Assembly: GCA_016938675.1 (NCBI GenBank)
Contig: JAFGUF010000031.1
Coordinates: 186,001 to 250,000, forward strand
From: Clostridia bacterium
GTDB lineage: Bacteria; Bacillota; Clostridia; Christensenellales; UMGS416
Direction of reading: 5' to 3'
DNA length: 64,000 nucleotides
The notes under the pieces are model-generated. The model was given only the letters and a program-made list of their open reading frames with translations, had not been told where the DNA came from and did not search any database. A program made the translations under genes and the position numbers. Shown one piece after another: positions 12,613 to 64,000 of this stretch (positions within the stretch are counted from its first letter, which is position 1; each line of letters opens with the position of its first letter).

Positions 12613-13917
12613 TTATTTTTTCTCCCGCAGGTCTGTTACGCGCTGAGCTTTGCCCTGGAAACGCTTCAGTGTAGCGGGCTGGACTAAGGTAACCGTAGCA
12701 TCAATTGACAGTATTGTTCTTAAATCCGATTTAATTTTGTTTTGCAGCTTTTCCAGTTTTGAGTAGTTGTCCAGCAGGCGCTCATCTGCCAGCTCGACCA
12801 GCACTTCCAGCTGATCAAGCCAGTTCTCACGTCTGACAATTATTTCATAGTGCGGCTCGACATCCTGCGAGCTAAGGAGCACGGACTCAATCTGAGACGG
12901 GAATACATTGACGCCGCGGATAATCAGCATGTCGTCGCTTCTTCCCGTTATTTTTGCCATGCGCTTCAATGTACGCCCGCATGAGCATTTATCCGGTATA
13001 AGATAGGAGATATCCTTTGTACGGTATCTTAGAATTGGCAGCGCTTCCTTGCTGACGGCGCTTATAACTACCTCGCCGGGTGTGCCATCCGGCAGCACTT
13101 CACCAGTTTTCGGATCGATTATTTCAACGATAAAATGGTCTTCATTTATGTGCATGCCGCATTTGTGGGTGCATTCCCCGGATACGCCCGGGCCGATAAT
13201 TTCTGAAAGCCCGTAGTTTTCTGTGGCGGTAATATTTAGCCGCTCTTCGAGCTGGGCTCTCATCTCCTCAGTAGATGCCTCCGCACCGAAAAGCCCGTAC
13301 TTGAGCTTCAAATCTTTTTTAGGGTCAATTCCCATCTGCTCCATCACTTCTGAAATATAAAGCGCATAGGAAGGCGTGGAAATGAGCACAGTGGTTTCGA
13401 AATCCTTCATCAGCATAATCTGCTTTTCAGTATTCCCGGAGGATGCGGGAATAACCATTGCGCCAATTTTTTCAAGAGCGTAATGCAGCCCGAAAGCGCC
13501 CGTAAAAAGCCCATATCCAAAGGCAACCTGAGCAGTATCATGCGGGGTCACGCCGCCGGCGCAGCATAGCCGCGCCATGACGGAGGACCACATATTAAGG
13601 TCATTTTGAGTGTATCCGACGACTGTCGGTTTACCGGTAGTTCCTGAAGATGCATGTACCCTGACAACTTTCTCCTTTGGAACAGCAAACATGCCGAAAG
13701 GATAGGTATCCCTTAAATCATCCTTTACTGTGAAGGGCAGCTTCTTTAAATCATTTAGAGATTTGATATCTTCCGGTTTTATCCCCGCGTCATCAAATTT
13801 CTTTTTGTACAATGGTACATTTTCATATACTCTTTTTGCAGCATCTTTCAGCCTTTCAAGCTGCAGGTTTTCTATGGTTTCTCTTGATGCAGTCTCGATT
13901 TTCTCTTCAAAAAACAT
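12613..13917 (-). CDS. paaK: Phenylacetate-CoA ligase-type enzyme, copy 2
   Basis: 434-residue paralog of the ligase at 8979, with the same P-loop [16 protein letters not shown] and the same RGVNVFPSQIE hinge. The cysteine pair near the C-domain (DKCSCGRTLKRM) is conserved in both copies. Two ligases flanking iorAB suggest either different aryl substrates or one acting in CoA activation and the other in ATP recovery. The start has GGGAAAGGTTG upstream. The gap to iorA is 20 bases. Confidence 0.92.
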   Translation of the reverse strand: MFFEEKIETASRETIENLQLERLKDAAKRVYENVPLYKKKFDDAGIKPEDIKSLNDLKKLPFTVKDDLRDTYPFGMFAVPKEKVVRVHASSGTTGKPTVVGYTQNDLNMWSSVMARLCCAGGVTPHDTAQVAFGYGLFTGAFGLHYALEKIGAMVIPASSGNTEKQIMLMKDFETTVLISTPSYALYISEVMEQMGIDPKKDLKLKYGLFGAEASTEEMRAQLEERLNITATENYGLSEIIGPGVSGECTHKCGMHINEDHFIVEIIDPKTGEVLPDGTPGEVVISAVSKEALPILRYRTKDISYLIPDKCSCGRTLKRMAKITGRSDDMLIIRGVNVFPSQIESVLLSSQDVEPHYEIIVRRENWLDQLEVLVELADERLLDNYSKLEKLQNKIKSDLRTILSIDATVTLVQPATLKRFQGKAQRVTDLREKK

Positions 13918-53380: not shown

Positions 53381-55144
53381 ATGACAGGAAATAATAGACG
53401 GCACAGCACGGAATCTTCACGGGGCACCAGCTCCAGAGGATATTCCTCCAGGGGAGGCAGTACACGCTCGGGAAGTTCGCGCAGCGCAGCAGCATCGAGA
53501 AGCACTAGCAGCCAGAGAGGCGGCGGGAGACCCGCAGGCGCGAGCATAGCAGGAATGATAGCGGTTGTTCTTGTGGTAGTTATTGTGGTTGCAGCTGTGG
53601 GCGGAGTGCTCTTTTGGACAAATGTAAAATATCTTTATGATTATACAACAATTATACCAGGGGTAGAAATTGAAGGCGTTGACATTGGCGGAATGACTGC
53701 AGATGAAGCCATAGTTGCACTGAACTCAAGGCTGCAGGAAAAAATAGGACAGCTTTCAATAACATTAAAACATGGTGATATGGCGCCGTGGAAATATGAC
53801 GCGTCCAATATCGGCGCATCCGGCGATATCACAAGCATAGTAGCGGAGGCCATGAGATACGGGCATGTAGGAGAATTGAAAGACAGAATAAATGAAGCAA
53901 AATATGTGCTTAATAATCCTGAAACTTTCAGCATCTCTTTCGGATATGATAAAACATCAATTACCACAATTGTTGAAGCATTGAAAGCAGACATAGATGT
54001 GCCTGCAGTTGAACCGGACTTGGAATTCGACAAGGACGCAGGGCAGATAACTCAAATTGACGAGAAAGTCTCTTTGCTTTATAATCCTTTGAAGTATGAC
54101 ACTTCTGTATCGGTTAATGGTGTTCCTGCAGAAGTATATGTTGACGCAAACGGAAATTATCAGGTAGCTGCGGATATATTCACCATCACCCCTGGTTCAT
54201 CAGGATATGTGGTGGATGTTGAGGCGACAGTAAACGCCATCATTTCAGATTTGGCTGACGACTCAGTAGCAAATGTTGATATTGTAACGATACCTGTAGA
54301 ACCGACTCTGACAGAGGAAGAATTACTTGAGTGCACATCTTTGGTTTATCATTCCAAGTCAGGCATAGCGTATACATCAAACTACGAGAGAGACATGAAT
54401 ATTCAGGTTGCCTTAAATAGCTTTGACGGCCTCGTAATTAGGCCGGGGCAGACAATATCATTTAACGAGACAACGGGAGAAAGAAGCCAGGCAAACGGAT
54501 ACTTCTTGGCTCCGGGAATAGCACAGGATAAATCGCACGAGCTTGTATGGGGCGGCGGCGTATGCCAGGCGGCAACAGTAATATTCAATGCTGCAATCAT
54601 GTCAGGCATGACAATACTTGACAAGGACTCGCACTCATGGCCTTTGTATACGGCAGCGGATGACTACGGCGAGGACGCAAGAGACGCGATGGTAAACTGG
54701 GGAACATCAGACCTGGTATTCAGGAATGATACTGAGTACCCGATTTACTTTGATACATACCTCCATTGGAGAAGCTCAGACAACGCGGACTATGCATACT
54801 GCAACGCATATTCAAAGCTTCTTCCTAACGGCGAGAGCTATGACTATGAGCCGCGCTTAGTTGAATCAGAAGTAGCTCCTGAGCCTGTATACAAAGCTCT
54901 CAAGGACACCACAGAATATAGCGACGCTAAATGGGAATGGGATTCAGACCTTCAGCTTTTAGTTTACGAATATGCTCCCTCCAAGCCGAAGAAATACTAT
55001 GATGTCTATCAGAGGCTGCTTGACGCTCAGGGAAACTTGATTTCTGAACAGTTATGGTATAGGTCACATTATGATTTGATACAGGGGTTATACTATACGA
55101 AGCCGGACCCAAATAAAACCACTCCAGACGGTGGTGTAGGATAA
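53381..55144 (+). CDS. VanW family protein with membrane anchor and peptidoglycan-binding-like domains
   Basis: 587 residues. The first about 45 residues are Arg/Ser/Gly-rich and cytoplasmic. A membrane helix follows (about 55-80), then putative peptidoglycan-binding domains of the PG_binding_4 type (IIPGVEIEGVDIGGMTADEAIVALNSRL), and a VanW domain (about 345-480) with RPGQTISFNETTGERSQANGY, GGGVCQAATVIFNAAIMSG and DARDAMVNWGTSDLVFRN. VanW is found in some vancomycin-resistance clusters, but most genomic copies are general envelope proteins of unknown role. AAAGGAGG precedes the ATG. Confidence 0.88.
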   Translation: MTGNNRRHSTESSRGTSSRGYSSRGGSTRSGSSRSAAASRSTSSQRGGGRPAGASIAGMIAVVLVVVIVVAAVGGVLFWTNVKYLYDYTTIIPGVEIEGVDIGGMTADEAIVALNSRLQEKIGQLSITLKHGDMAPWKYDASNIGASGDITSIVAEAMRYGHVGELKDRINEAKYVLNNPETFSISFGYDKTSITTIVEALKADIDVPAVEPDLEFDKDAGQITQIDEKVSLLYNPLKYDTSVSVNGVPAEVYVDANGNYQVAADIFTITPGSSGYVVDVEATVNAIISDLADDSVANVDIVTIPVEPTLTEEELLECTSLVYHSKSGIAYTSNYERDMNIQVALNSFDGLVIRPGQTISFNETTGERSQANGYFLAPGIAQDKSHELVWGGGVCQAATVIFNAAIMSGMTILDKDSHSWPLYTAADDYGEDARDAMVNWGTSDLVFRNDTEYPIYFDTYLHWRSSDNADYAYCNAYSKLLPNGESYDYEPRLVESEVAPEPVYKALKDTTEYSDAKWEWDSDLQLLVYEYAPSKPKKYYDVYQRLLDAQGNLISEQLWYRSHYDLIQGLYYTKPDPNKTTPDGGVG

Positions 55145-56322: not shown

Positions 56323-57432
56323 ATGGCTGAGGGCAGCAAGAATAATAAAATAGTGGTCGGAATGTCCGGAGGTGTTGACAGCGCTGTTGCAGCATACCTT
56401 CTTAAAAAACAGGGGTATGAAACCATAGGCGTATTCATGAGAAACTGGGAAGAAAGCGATGATGACGGCGTCTGCACGGCTGATGAAGACTATAATTATG
56501 TAAGGAAAGTCTGCGAGCAGATTGGCATCTCATATTACACGGTGAACTTCACAAGGGAATACTGGGACAGGGTGTTTGAATACTTTCTGAAAGAGCTCAG
56601 GGCAGGCAGGACGCCAAACCCTGACGTAATGTGCAACAAGGAAATAAAGTTCAAGGCCTTTTTGGAATTCGCGATGAAGCTGGATGCGTCATTTTTGGCT
56701 ACAGGCCATTACGCAAGAATAGCAGAGAAGGATGGCAAAAAGCTGCTGTTAAGAGGCGAAGACGACAATAAGGACCAGACCTATTTCCTATACAACCTTG
56801 GGCAGAAAGAGCTTGAAAAAACGATGTTCCCCATAGGAGAAATAAAAAAAAGCGAAGTAAGACGGATAGCCAAAGAGGCTGGCCTGGCTTCCGCACAAAG
56901 GAAGGACTCCACAGGCATATGCTTTATCGGGGAAAGGGATTTCAATAAATTTATAGCAAAATACCTGCCGTCTGAAGGGGGCGACATAATCAACATAAAA
57001 ACAGGGGAAAAAGCAGGCAGCCACAATGGGCTGATGTTCTATACATTAGGTCAAAGAAAAGGGCTGGGCATAGGCGGCAATTCAAAAATGTCGGAGCCAT
57101 GGTTTGTGGCTGGTAAAGATATTGAAAACAATATACTTTATGCTGTACAGGGCGATGACGATGTGTTATATTCTACAGGCTGCGAGGTATCCGGCCTATC
57201 CTTCGTTGCTGGCAGTGCGCCCTCTGATGAGTTTAAGTGCACAGTAAGGCTGCGCCACAGGCAAAAGGACAGGGGCTGCACAGTGAAAGTAGAAGGCGAC
57301 GCAGCACAGGTTATATTTGATGACAGGCAGAGAGCCGTTACGCCCGGGCAGTCGGCGGTATTTTATGACGGCGAGGTTTGCCTCGGCGGAGGAATAGTGG
57401 AGAAGGCATGGAGCGCGAATGATACAGTTTAA
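56323..57432 (+). CDS. mnmA: tRNA 2-thiouridine(34) synthase MnmA
   Basis: 369-residue ATP-dependent enzyme that thiolates U34 of Lys, Glu and Gln tRNAs using sulfur from IscS. The PP-loop motif GMSGGVDSAVAAYLL, the catalytic Cys in NPDVMCNKEIKF and the persulfide-forming Cys in STGICFIGERDF are all present. The C-terminal beta-barrel has the usual VRLRHRQKDRGCTV. Downstream small genes overlap or abut it, suggesting one transcript with the membrane protein and sortase-like protein. Confidence 0.96.
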   Translation: MAEGSKNNKIVVGMSGGVDSAVAAYLLKKQGYETIGVFMRNWEESDDDGVCTADEDYNYVRKVCEQIGISYYTVNFTREYWDRVFEYFLKELRAGRTPNPDVMCNKEIKFKAFLEFAMKLDASFLATGHYARIAEKDGKKLLLRGEDDNKDQTYFLYNLGQKELEKTMFPIGEIKKSEVRRIAKEAGLASAQRKDSTGICFIGERDFNKFIAKYLPSEGGDIINIKTGEKAGSHNGLMFYTLGQRKGLGIGGNSKMSEPWFVAGKDIENNILYAVQGDDDVLYSTGCEVSGLSFVAGSAPSDEFKCTVRLRHRQKDRGCTVKVEGDAAQVIFDDRQRAVTPGQSAVFYDGEVCLGGGIVEKAWSANDTV

Positions 57433-57901
57433 TGAAATGAACTCAGGCGGGGAGAAAAAAGGAAATACCCTGTTTTATAGAATTGTAAGAATAACGCTGA
57501 TGATCATTAGCGGCATTATGATGTTCTATTATATGCTCGGAGTAGTTAACTACCTAATGTCAGGGCCCAGTATTACGCTGCTGGATGATCTTACAACGGA
57601 ATTTGTGGTGCAGGTAATCCTATTGGGCCTAAGCCTATTTTTCCTGATTGTGGCATGGTTCAGGCATATATCGTACGGCATCATATCGCTCGTGTTCATT
57701 TGCATATATACGGCATACTCGTCGCTGCTTTTGGGAGGGCTGACAATTGGCTTTGTGCCAATCGCTGTTGCTTCGGCTGCGACAGGATTTATTCTGCTTG
57801 GAATAATTAAAAAGCACAGTGAAAAGAAGGACTTCGATTTGTATGCTGAGCCCATAATAGACGACTATGAAGGGCCGGACATTTTTAATTTCAGGATATA
57901 A
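57419..57901 (+). CDS. Small four-helix membrane protein of unknown function
   Basis: 160 residues with four hydrophobic helices (about residues 20-48, 60-82, 83-105 and 108-128) and an acidic C-terminal tail. No family recognised. It overlaps mnmA by 14 bases with GGAG upstream of its ATG inside mnmA, so it is translationally coupled. The next gene starts one base after its stop. It may be a membrane partner of the sortase-like protein. Confidence 0.75.
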   Translation: MIQFNEMNSGGEKKGNTLFYRIVRITLMIISGIMMFYYMLGVVNYLMSGPSITLLDDLTTEFVVQVILLGLSLFFLIVAWFRHISYGIISLVFICIYTAYSSLLLGGLTIGFVPIAVASAATGFILLGIIKKHSEKKDFDLYAEPIIDDYEGPDIFNFRI

Positions 57902-57902
57902 G

Positions 57903-58772
57903 ATGAAGAATACGAATAATATATTTGAAAATACCACTCCGAGTAAAAAGAGAAGCGACATAAAAGACATTAAGAATATCGGAAGAAATTCCGGGTATCT
58001 CCATGAGTGGAAGGAAGAGCAAAAGAAGCGGCGCATATCAGCGTTTAAAAAGATAGGTTTATTCGGAGGAATACTCATTCTTACTGCGTCCATAACGATT
58101 TTCATTAATTATCAAAACGTTAAGGATATTTGGGCGGAACAGGAAAGAATATTGGCGTCCATAACGCCTGCGCCCACACAGCGGGTTGAAAGGCCAACTG
58201 AAGAGCCCGTTGTATATTCACAGGAGCTAACAGAAGCAATCAGAAAGTATGAAGACACCGTGGGCTATCTTAAGATTGCAGATACAAATATGGATTTCCC
58301 TATCGTTCAGGGAGAGGACAATTTCTTTTACGAAAATAGAAACTATGACAGGTCATATTCAGAAGTTGCCGCAACATATATGCTGACAGAATGCGACGCG
58401 GAAACATCCCGCCATATTGTTATATACGGCGAAAACGTGGATGCCGCAGGCAGGCTGGGAGAGCTTAATAAATATTTGGACTACGACTTTTTCCATACAC
58501 ACGAATTTATAACCTTGGAGCTTTTGGACGGCGCACAAGTATGGCAGGTGTTTTCCGTCCACTTATCAAGCATTACTTTTGATTACAAGGATATTGAATT
58601 TGAAAGCAACACTGAATACCTTGCCTATATTAGGATGTTCCAGACGATGTCCCAATTTAAAAGGGATGTTAACCTGACCGAGGAAGACCAGATTCTCACC
58701 TTAGTTACAGACTATCATGATCTGGACCTTGATGAAGGGTACCTAATGATTCACGCAAGGCGCATCAATTAA
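57903..58772 (+). CDS. Sortase B-like protein lacking catalytic His and Cys (pseudoenzyme)
   Basis: 289 residues: a charged N-terminal region, one membrane helix (about 50-69), a Pro-rich stalk (ITPAPTQRVERPTEEP) and a sortase class B beta-barrel starting GYLKIADTNMDFPIVQGEDNFFYENRNYD. The catalytic His segment, normally YGHNM, reads YGENV (Glu177). The catalytic Cys segment, normally TLxTC, reads TLVTDY (Asp270). The Arg-containing final strand (MIHARR) is kept. Two of the three catalytic residues are therefore replaced and transpeptidation is unlikely. Start 57903 has AGGATATA upstream. Confidence 0.85.
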   Translation: MKNTNNIFENTTPSKKRSDIKDIKNIGRNSGYLHEWKEEQKKRRISAFKKIGLFGGILILTASITIFINYQNVKDIWAEQERILASITPAPTQRVERPTEEPVVYSQELTEAIRKYEDTVGYLKIADTNMDFPIVQGEDNFFYENRNYDRSYSEVAATYMLTECDAETSRHIVIYGENVDAAGRLGELNKYLDYDFFHTHEFITLELLDGAQVWQVFSVHLSSITFDYKDIEFESNTEYLAYIRMFQTMSQFKRDVNLTEEDQILTLVTDYHDLDLDEGYLMIHARRIN

Positions 58773-60210
58773 ACCTGGAAGACAGGTACCCCTGCATGCA
58801 TCCGGCGCTTTCCATCTGGGACAGGTATTCTCCCCAATCCCAGTCAAGTGATTTTTCTCCCTTTATAAATGCTGTCCACCATTCATACTGCAAGTTTTCA
58901 ACGGAATCCCTTACTATCTGCTTAGGCAGGTACGAAGTATAGGCAATCTGGCTTGACGGCACTAAAAATCCGTTTTCTGGCAGGTACTTTCGCATATCTA
59001 TGAGTTCATTTAATAATGCTTCATCATATTTGGCCCAGCTGTTATAGTAAATTCCCGGCAGTCCTTCAGGAGTGAGCCCCTGCTCTTTCCATTGGTAATC
59101 TCCGCTGCCTGAAAAAGGCACCAGATACTCAATGGATCCGTCTGTATGAGACAGGGTATGCAGCTTGTCTTCTCCGTAATTTAAAAGCGCTCTGCCGTCC
59201 TCTGAAAAACATGAGTTAATAAACTTAAGCACATTTATTTCGTTGCCCGTTCCTGCGATTATACCGCCTGTCTTGGAGGGCTCAAGAGGATAAGAAGGGA
59301 TGTATGCATCTTCAGAGAAATTCAGCATTACAGGGCTGTATCCCTCGTCATAAAGCCATTCGAAATCATCTTCTGTGCCTAATATAACTCCAGCGGTATT
59401 ATCAGCAGCCCCGATTTCTGTCCTGCTGGGCGGGCTGTATTCGTAGTCTTCTGGAATTATTCCTGCAGAGTAGAATTCATTAAGAGTCTTCAGCATTTCA
59501 CGGAATTCATCGCTTGAAGGGCCGTATATCATTTGCTCATCTTTTGTGTACCAATAGTCAGACGTGCCGAAATATGGGGCAATAAGCTGCACGAGCTCTC
59601 TGGTTGAGCCATAGAACATCAATTGCTTACCCGTCATGAATTCCTTGAACTCATTAAGAGTCAGTATATTGGTATTGCGCAGTGATGCATCGGCAAAAGC
59701 GCAGCCCATAAAAATATTGCTGTCTTCTCTGAACGGAAAATATGTAATAGGTTGTCCATAGGCATAAGCACTGGCAAACGAAGGCCACGAAAGAGCCCAG
59801 TCGCGGAAATCCGGTGCATATTCATCAAGGTATGGGGCTATATCAAGCAGATGGTCATTGTATACATAGGCACTGTAGCTGTCGAGCTCAACGAAATCGT
59901 ACCCTTCACCGGAGGACATTATTCTGCCTATGGTATCGGTCCAGTCCACCGGGCGTATGGTTTTGAAATTTGCCTTAACGCCAGAGAGGCCGTATAGTTT
60001 TTTAATTACAGGCCACGACTCCATAACATAATCATCTGTAACTAAAGCCATATTGACGGTGCTATCGTATGCTGCTTCCGTTTCCTGAGGCTGCGGCGTG
60101 AGGTATTCTTCCGGGGCTGCAGGCTCCGGAGGAGCGAAGCAGGCGGAGAGCATCAGAACGAGAACCAATATTATTACCGCTGTAAATCTATAATAAAAAA
60201 TGTTCTTCAC
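58765..60210 (-). CDS. Extracellular solute-binding lipoprotein (ABC transporter family 1-like)
   Basis: 481 residues with a signal peptide and lipobox (LSAC) followed by an acidic Pro-rich linker. The mature domain resembles sugar/oligosaccharide-binding lipoproteins: NMALVTDDYVMESWPVIKKLYGLSGVKANFKTI and a typical family 1 hinge, with a Trp-rich C-terminal region (NLQYEWWTAFIKGEKSLDWDWGEYLSQM). No permease or ATPase gene is adjacent, so it is an orphan binding protein or a sensor component. The start codon is GTG with AAGGAAG upstream. Its 3' end overlaps the sortase-like gene by eight bases. Confidence 0.85.
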   Translation of the reverse strand: MKNIFYYRFTAVIILVLVLMLSACFAPPEPAAPEEYLTPQPQETEAAYDSTVNMALVTDDYVMESWPVIKKLYGLSGVKANFKTIRPVDWTDTIGRIMSSGEGYDFVELDSYSAYVYNDHLLDIAPYLDEYAPDFRDWALSWPSFASAYAYGQPITYFPFREDSNIFMGCAFADASLRNTNILTLNEFKEFMTGKQLMFYGSTRELVQLIAPYFGTSDYWYTKDEQMIYGPSSDEFREMLKTLNEFYSAGIIPEDYEYSPPSRTEIGAADNTAGVILGTEDDFEWLYDEGYSPVMLNFSEDAYIPSYPLEPSKTGGIIAGTGNEINVLKFINSCFSEDGRALLNYGEDKLHTLSHTDGSIEYLVPFSGSGDYQWKEQGLTPEGLPGIYYNSWAKYDEALLNELIDMRKYLPENGFLVPSSQIAYTSYLPKQIVRDSVENLQYEWWTAFIKGEKSLDWDWGEYLSQMESAGCMQGYLSSRFN

Positions 60211-62152: not shown

Positions 62153-62202
62153 CAGAAAAAAAGAAAGAGGTGATATAAAAAAGAAAATGACAATTGAATA
62201 CT

Positions 62203-62350
62203 AGCGCCAGACCCTTATAGATATTTGAATAAAAATCTTTAGGGTGACGAGGACAGGGTTAATCGAAAATTCGGCGGGTGCCCTGCGGCAGTTATGTCAG
62301 CCGTCAAAATCTCTACAAAAGCACATTGGAAACAGGTGAACAAAGTGGGA
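62203..62350 (+). ncRNA. glmS ribozyme-riboswitch
   Basis: Self-cleaving RNA activated by glucosamine-6-phosphate. The sequence starts AGCGCCAG, with the predicted cleavage between A62203 and G62204, then the P2 stem GACCC/GGGT, the core GACGAGGACAGGGTTAATCGA, and TTCGGCGGGTGCCCTGCGGC of the pseudoknotted P2.1/P3 region, all matching the family consensus. Downstream bases to about 62350 form the P4 region. In Bacillota, cleavage exposes glmS mRNA to RNase J and lowers GlmS. Confidence 0.92.
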
Positions 62351-62404
62351 TGGACATACAGAGACTTAACGAGTATGTGGTAAGTATATTTATTATACTT
62401 TTGC

Positions 62405-62484: not shown

Positions 62485-64000
62485 ATGTGTGGAATAGTTG
62501 GATATATCGGAGAGAAGAAATCAACAGATGTTTTATTGGACGGGCTTTCAAAGCTGGAGTACAGAGGCTATGACTCAGCAGGAGTAGCAGTATTAAGCGG
62601 CGACAAGATGGAAATCAGGAAGAAGAAGGGCAGACTCAAGGTTCTTGGGGATGACCTTATAAAAATGCCGATTGAGGGCGGCATGGGAATAGGCCACACA
62701 AGGTGGGCAACCCACGGTGCACCATCAGATGAGAACGCCCATCCGCACGCAACAGCCAGCGGAGACATAGCGGTGGTTCACAACGGCATAATAGAAAACT
62801 ACATGAAATTAAAAGACTATCTGGGAACAAAAGGCTATACCTTTGTTTCGCAGACAGACACAGAAGTAATTGCCCACCTGATAGACCACTATTACGAAGG
62901 CAGCCTTTATGAAGCGGTACAGGAAGCTATGAAGCGCCTAGAGGGCAGCTATGCACTTGCAGTAATATCCAAAAAAGACCCCGACGAGCTTATCGCAGTG
63001 CGCAAGGATTCACCGCTTATTATAGGGCTGGGTGAAGGCGAAAACTTCATAGCCAGCGACATACCGGCTATACTAGCATATACGAGGAATGTATACCTAT
63101 TAAATGATGATGAAGTAGCTAGGGTAAGAAAAGACGGTGTGGATGTTTTCGATAAATACGGCATACCGGTGCAGCATGACATATTCAAGGTTGACTGGGA
63201 TGTTGAAGCGGCAGAGAAGGGCGGATACCAGCACTTCATGATCAAGGAAATCCACGAAGAGCCAAAGGCGCTTAAGGATACTTTATCGCCAAGGATAACC
63301 AAGGAAGGGGAAATAGACCTTAAAAATCTTGATATAAGCCACAGAAAGATAAAGAATATCCAAAAAATTGTTATAGTAGCCTGCGGAACGGCATATCATG
63401 CGGGGCTTGTAGCCAAGTACGCCTTTGAGGAGAAACTGCGCATACCGGTTGAGATAGACATTGCATCCGAATATAGATACAGGAATCCCATTGTAGGGCC
63501 GGATGATCTGTATATCATAATAAGCCAGTCAGGGGAAACGGCGGACACCATGGCAGCCATGAGGATGGCAAAAAAAGAAGGAGCGCAGATACTGGCAATT
63601 ACCAATGTAGTTGGCTCTACGCTATCGAGAGAGGCTGACTATGTAATGTATACATGGGCGGGCCCGGAAATAGCGGTGGCCTCCACGAAGGCATACACAA
63701 CGCAGCTATTGTGCCTCTACCTTCTGATGCTGGAATTCGGAAAGGTTCGCGGAGCAATAGATGAGCTGGACTACGCTGCGTACATAACGGAGCTTAAAGC
63801 AATACCGGCAAAAGCAGCGGAGATAATAACAGAAGACAGCATAAAGCAGATAATGAAAAGTGCGCATAAGCACTGTACTGTTGAGGACACATATTTCCTT
63901 GGCAGAAATCTGGACTATGCAGTTGCACTGGAGGGCTCACTGAAGCTGAAGGAAATATCCTATATTCATTCGGAGGCTTTCCCTGCGGGTGAACTAAAGC
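62485..64000 (+). CDS. glmS: Glutamine--fructose-6-phosphate aminotransferase (isomerizing), 3' end outside window
   Basis: Makes glucosamine-6-phosphate from fructose-6-phosphate and glutamine, the first step of amino sugar and cell wall synthesis. The N-terminal Cys2 nucleophile is in MCGIVGYIG, followed by LEYRGYDSAGVAV, HTRWATHG and HNGIIENY. The first SIS domain has ACGTAYHAGLVAKY and SQSGETADT. The frame runs off the window at 64000, giving about 505 of roughly 608 residues. AAAGGGA precedes the ATG. Confidence 0.97.
   Translation, partial: MCGIVGYIGEKKSTDVLLDGLSKLEYRGYDSAGVAVLSGDKMEIRKKKGRLKVLGDDLIKMPIEGGMGIGHTRWATHGAPSDENAHPHATASGDIAVVHNGIIENYMKLKDYLGTKGYTFVSQTDTEVIAHLIDHYYEGSLYEAVQEAMKRLEGSYALAVISKKDPDELIAVRKDSPLIIGLGEGENFIASDIPAILAYTRNVYLLNDDEVARVRKDGVDVFDKYGIPVQHDIFKVDWDVEAAEKGGYQHFMIKEIHEEPKALKDTLSPRITKEGEIDLKNLDISHRKIKNIQKIVIVACGTAYHAGLVAKYAFEEKLRIPVEIDIASEYRYRNPIVGPDDLYIIISQSGETADTMAAMRMAKKEGAQILAITNVVGSTLSREADYVMYTWAGPEIAVASTKAYTTQLLCLYLLMLEFGKVRGAIDELDYAAYITELKAIPAKAAEIITEDSIKQIMKSAHKHCTVEDTYFLGRNLDYAVALEGSLKLKEISYIHSEAFPAGELK

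Follow-up and report, generated by a model that had tools for sequence, protein, structure and literature searches.

Inactive relatives with a job of their own are well known among kinases and proteases. The described systems closest to the locus reported here are the class B sortases and SipA of S. pyogenes. In B. anthracis SrtB, residues H140, C233 and R243 are catalytic, and Tyr191, Glu240, Ser231 and Lys143 are named as ligand contacts in the available part of the report (PMC11987632); a Cys-His-Arg triad is described for C. difficile SrtB as well (excerpts of PMC5118464). SipA is an inactive homologue of signal peptidase that keeps the fold and the peptide cleft, with the catalytic Ser replaced by Asp and the Lys by Gly. 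According to the available sections of its report (PMC4049620), its crystal structure has been determined, it is essential for pilus polymerisation, it was without peptidase activity when assayed, and it is proposed to act by binding in pilus assembly. A search of open-licence literature with narrow terms, which is weak evidence of absence, found no description of a natural sortase with a replaced active site.

The window analysed here is a stretch of 64,000 nucleotides from the genome of a Clostridia bacterium (2.62 Mb, 45 contigs, 96% complete; the sole genome of its genus in our list of relatives). It contains a gene for a protein of 289 residues that is homologous to class B sortases, has an intact reading frame and a confident fold model, and has all three catalytic residues replaced. 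As in SipA, an enzyme fold is kept and the catalytic residues are replaced, the pattern by which a pseudoenzyme is recognised, and the protein is hereafter referred to as the pseudosortase. The features of the locus are as follows:

56323..57432, + strand: gene that we take from its sequence to be mnmA (tRNA 2-thiouridylase); first of three closely packed genes (frame; homologues in 56 of 61 genomes)
57419..57901, + strand: 160-residue multi-pass membrane protein of no known family (frame; hydropathy; no Pfam match over cut-off)
57893..57896, + strand: probable ribosome-binding site (AGGA), six bases upstream of the ATG (sequence reading)
57903..58772, + strand: pseudosortase gene, 289 residues, ATG to stop (open frame without internal stop)
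58053..58109, + strand: membrane helix, residues 51–69 (top 19-residue hydropathy 2.05; within model helix 31–85)
58158..58214, + strand: Pro-rich stalk, residues 86–104 (sequence; model without strand or helix at 86–106)
58221..58769, + strand: class B sortase-fold domain, residues 107–289 (5b23_A, Z 27.4, rmsd 1.5, 180 aligned)
58431..58433, + strand: Glu177 (GAA) replacing the catalytic His (alignments)
58710..58712, + strand: Asp270 (GAC) replacing the catalytic Cys (alignments)
58740..58742, + strand: Tyr280 (TAC) replacing the catalytic Arg (alignments)

The other two forward frames of the pseudosortase gene hold 12 and 26 stops, and its codon use resembles that of the neighbouring genes. 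By simple codon counting, a fully neutral frame of 289 codons would be free of stops with a probability of about 1e-6. The mnmA and 160-residue genes overlap by 14 bases, and a single base separates the latter from the pseudosortase gene; as far as spacing goes, this bears out the tight operon of the original prediction, and the intact membrane helix and Pro-rich stalk that it listed were also recovered. With the helix at residues 51–69 (hydropathy 2.05) the protein has the N-terminal membrane anchor of class B sortases. The 160-residue membrane protein is a possible candidate for its partner. The end of the pseudosortase gene is overlapped by 8 bases by a convergent gene (58765-60210, − strand, 481 residues), the product of which starts with what resembles a lipoprotein signal and has no Pfam match. 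Another cell-envelope gene lies nearby and encodes a VanW-like protein that carries a putative peptidoglycan-binding domain (53381-55144, + strand; PF04294, E 3.4e-34; PF12229, E 2.4e-13). A glmS ribozyme (RF00234, 99.8 bits) is found at 62192-62362 (+ strand), before a glmS-like gene at 62485.

The NCBIfam model of class B sortases (TIGR03064) matches residues 64–269 with an E value of 6.6e-33. The score of 114 bits is below the equivalog cut-off of 153.75, and two intact class B paralogs score 172 and 182.8 bits. Comparison with Pfam gave no match up to E 1, and so none to Sortase (PF04203). A search against the sequences of solved structures returned 15 matches, all of them SrtB or class B by name, with a best E value of 1.2e-26; identity to solved class B sortases is 23–30%. 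The AlphaFold2 model has a mean pLDDT of 85.8, with residues 101–289 mostly above 90. Its input was an alignment of 41 sequences, the pseudosortase and 40 active-type relatives, and these relatives would favour the family fold, a caveat on the model. SrtB entries matched the model with Z of 20.6–27.4, compared with 13.2 and less for other sortase classes, a ranking that comes from re-scoring Foldseek's list and covers the families on that list. The best solved match was C. perfringens SrtB (5b23), with Z 27.4 and rmsd 1.5 over 180 residues. The profile match and the Z values support the class B fold that had been read across the whole domain from the letters alone, and the structure prediction proposed as a check returned a confidently modelled class B sortase domain.

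Alignment of the pseudosortase to B. anthracis SrtB is gap-free from the catalytic His to the end and places His140, Cys233 and Arg243 opposite Glu177, Asp270 and Tyr280. Pairwise and multiple alignments agree that Glu177 of YGEN and Asp270 of TLVTD occupy the His and Cys columns, as originally predicted. The accompanying statement that only the final Arg strand is kept holds in part: the last strand is present, but its catalytic Arg is gone. Arg286 and Arg287 lie in an 'AR[R]' at the end of the strand, a feature that several relatives have on top of the catalytic Arg. The claim that Cys transpeptidation cannot be performed is now on firmer ground, with the Arg replaced too and the sole Cys (residue 164) located 106 residues ahead of the TLxTC site.

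Under the genetic code, each of the three replacements takes a minimum of two base changes, which makes six or more in total. A sequencing error in the intact frame, which resequencing would correct by restoring Cys and His, is on this count rejected as very unlikely. An alternative alignment that returns Cys and His to the active site is rejected too, the pairwise and multiple alignments being concordant against it. One might still picture a working sortase with a relocated site, built from Cys164 and a His (residue 171) just before strand 4; with Cys164 so far from the TLxTC site, an Asp in the Cys column and the Arg replaced as well, we find this hardly credible.

Conserved columns after the His are changed as well (Met179, Gly182, Met184 and Phe185). 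The substrate-contact Tyr191 of B. anthracis SrtB is kept as Tyr228 and the ligand contact Glu240 becomes Asp277, while Ser231 and Lys143 are replaced by Val and Asp. Since the loop after the His is eroded and the last two contacts are changed, ordinary sorting-signal binding may also have been lost, to judge by these substitutions. Of the 31 conserved columns outside the catalytic residues, the pseudosortase retains 18 (58%), compared with a median of 87% in relatives; a lower value was obtained for one of 127 relatives, a fragment.

To place these replacements, a census was made of 127 distinct related frames from loci fetched among the order-search matches listed. The His is retained in 125 of them, the Cys in 123 and the Arg in 116. 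Both His and Cys are kept in 122 of the 126 homologues readable at both sites, and none of these 126 is without both. The four exceptions (L104, L112, L113 and L119) each lack at most one of the two. L113 has Ala in the Cys column, but its sequence is probably cut short or wrongly aligned at this point, and we do not count it as an example. Also in the set is L116, which is a fragment. His, Cys and Arg are all present in the 28 additional loci taken from the class search. For the ten loci taken from the phylum search the expression used already required the His, and the Cys is present in each of them. Tyr in the Arg column is less remarkable and occurs also in L049:1114-2040, L052:1192-2040 and L245, where His and Cys are kept. 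In the class B homologue L104 (= L244:4340-5101) the Cys is kept, but the catalytic His has become Gln and the Arg Lys.

Homologues with the same Glu/Asp pair, the first check proposed with the original prediction, did not turn up: there are none among the 126 of the census, and a DNA pattern for YGEN and TLxTD at class B spacing, run over the genome contigs, gave 19 stretches in which a profile search found no sortase. The pattern covered 31 spacings with TAT as the only Tyr codon (the window uses TAC) and is a partial test. Peptide patterns for close relatives picked out ten stretches on genome contigs and one on a viral contig, none of which was confirmed. These results weigh against the idea that the protein is a different enzyme built on the sortase fold, in which the carboxylates of Glu177 and Asp270, together with Tyr280, would carry out acid-base hydrolysis or hold a catalytic metal. 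Both catalytic positions are indeed acidic, as is the domain (net charge −22, a value equalled or undercut by 5 of 126 relatives). We nevertheless judge such an enzyme very unlikely, given that neither the order census nor the pattern search with its one Tyr codon produced a relative with the pair, and that we know of no sortase-fold enzyme with a carboxylate pair of this kind.

The protein was searched for in 61 relatives and in 396 order, 391 class and 398 phylum genomes, which are overlapping draws. No pseudosortase ortholog was found in these samples; among the matches listed, other than the protein itself, identity is 35% or less. All eight genomes of the family in the collection were searched. 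Among the other seven, three are at least 90% complete (G001, G003 and G005), and their best matches are either none or at most 26% identical. A tree built from 80 class B sequences gives the pseudosortase an end branch of 1.75 against a median of 0.44; as seven rows, this one included, are flagged as long, the branch length does not stand out on its own. No well-supported group in this tree holds the pseudosortase, and its placement is unsure.

No conserved link between the pseudosortase and the 160-residue gene was found in the eight family genomes and the order search. Besides itself, the 160-residue protein has one homologue in the family genomes (29%, G002), at a contig end, and four further order matches with E values of 1.4e-4 to 7.2e-4. 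In the family genomes G002 and G005, a 16S rRNA gene lies downstream of mnmA (L089:4455-4813 and L090:4427-5946), in place of the 160-residue gene and the sortase.

The main rival to the pseudosortase reading is that of a decaying sortase gene, which would have lost catalysis, have little or no function left and owe its open frame to recent loss or luck. Confinement to a single genome, with no ortholog in the seven other family genomes or in the order, class and phylum samples, fits such decay, and so does erosion of the conserved columns to 58%. It sits poorly with a gene that has no stop or frameshift, that uses ordinary codons and that has kept the fold, the membrane helix and the spacing of the three-gene cluster. 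Identity to any relative listed is also no higher than 35%, and drift long enough to account for this under neutrality would hardly leave the frame open. We consider decay unlikely.

Two intact class B sortases are encoded in the same genome (L095:5676-6518, on contig C38, and L096:5886-6791). Two sorting signals pass the srtB_target cut-off, at 28 and 26.4 bits (contig C45:11588-11683 and 13503-13595, −), and belong to two neighbouring genes (L269 and L270); none of 14 control genomes passes this cut-off. One match in the same genome passes the LPXTG-anchor cut-off. The C45 proteins are probably substrates of these two intact enzymes, and the presence of two intact class B sortases and two sorting signals means that there is a sorting system for the pseudosortase to act on.

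Contig C38 carries a second sortase-like gene without the Cys (L095:6594-7184, − strand), for a class D-like protein of 196 residues. In its TLVSQYPF motif Gln175 (CAG) takes the place of the Cys, which is present in this column in all 12 alignable relatives (of 13 loci); His119 and an Arg are kept, and the protein passes the Pfam Sortase cut-off. The gene sits 75 bases upstream of the intact class B sortase L095:5676-6518 (listed start), and an inverted repeat was read by eye between the two. In the order, two species of genus g139 (family f11) have the class B homologues L112 and L119 (= L242:5272-6228 and L243:5561-6466), in which Ala or Val stands in for the canonical Cys and another Cys lies two residues earlier (SFCVA, TFCVV). 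Across an alignment of 302 codons, part of which precedes the likely start, the two are 73.5% identical, with dN 0.19 and dS 0.99; by these values the pair is under purifying selection. It may represent a shifted nucleophile or a selected pseudosortase, and the Cys two residues earlier suggests that it may still be active. The class D-like protein and this pair show that sortase folds lacking the canonical Cys, though rare, occur more than once.

We favour, at a probability of roughly 58%, the reading that the protein is a class B pseudosortase and works through non-covalent binding. That the gene makes a live protein and that this protein functions through such binding, in line with the non-enzymatic scaffold or binding role originally suggested, is plausible. 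The N-terminal helix would anchor it in the membrane with the domain outside the cell. With the class B fold kept and the His-Cys-Arg site lost, an acyl-enzyme would not be expected to form, and the most economical reading would be that the chemical step was lost and the binding fold kept. At the membrane surface it might bind a peptide, from either a sorting signal or the cell wall, or else a partner protein, which might be an active sortase or the 160-residue membrane protein. That the acidic pocket (Glu, Asp, and a domain of net charge −22) might favour a cationic ligand or a metal ion is only a guess. The intact frame, ordinary codon use, helix and stalk, the 18 of 31 columns and the retained Tyr228 all argue for this reading, and the L112/L119 pair, the class D-like gene and SipA may serve as precedents by analogy. 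Against it stand the missing ortholog, the retention of 58% of columns, the changed post-His loop and ligand contacts, a model alignment that would favour the family fold, and a partner or ligand that was not found. More tentatively, and with the odds against it in our estimate, pseudosortases might be a working kind of protein, membrane-anchored non-catalytic receptors or regulators of surface-protein sorting, of which the source genome would have two, the class B protein and the class D-like one, alongside its two intact class B sortases.

If sorting signals or cell-wall peptides are bound uncut, the protein would be a control point on what reaches the cell wall, and it would offer a natural non-covalent probe of substrate binding by class B sortases. 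There is also a consequence for annotation. Where names are given by fold, inactive proteins can end up among the sortases, and the Pfam Sortase model misses the class B pseudosortase and accepts the Cys-less class D-like protein.

Compared with known class B sortases such as those of C. perfringens (5b23) and B. anthracis (1rz2), the pseudosortase has the same fold, the N-terminal anchor, the helix between strands 6 and 7, and the TL-T of TLxTC. It differs from them in that His, Cys and Arg are all replaced, the NCBIfam cut-off is not reached and the Pfam Sortase family is not matched. Lacking the three residues and scoring below the family cut-off, it counts as a class B homologue and not as a sortase in the strict sense. 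The L112/L119 proteins share with it the class B domain and the replaced canonical Cys; they differ in retaining His and Arg, in having a Cys two positions earlier and in standing apart in the tree. The 196-residue protein of the same genome likewise has a sortase domain with the Cys replaced (Gln175); unlike the pseudosortase, it is class D-like, keeps His and an Arg and is accepted by the Pfam Sortase model. SipA belongs to another fold and family, and its structure, role and inactivity come from experiment, as far as the available part of PMC4049620 goes, whereas the structure of the pseudosortase is a model and its role and inactivity are predicted. What the two proteins have in common is a membrane-anchored fold of a surface-assembly enzyme in which the catalytic residues have been replaced.
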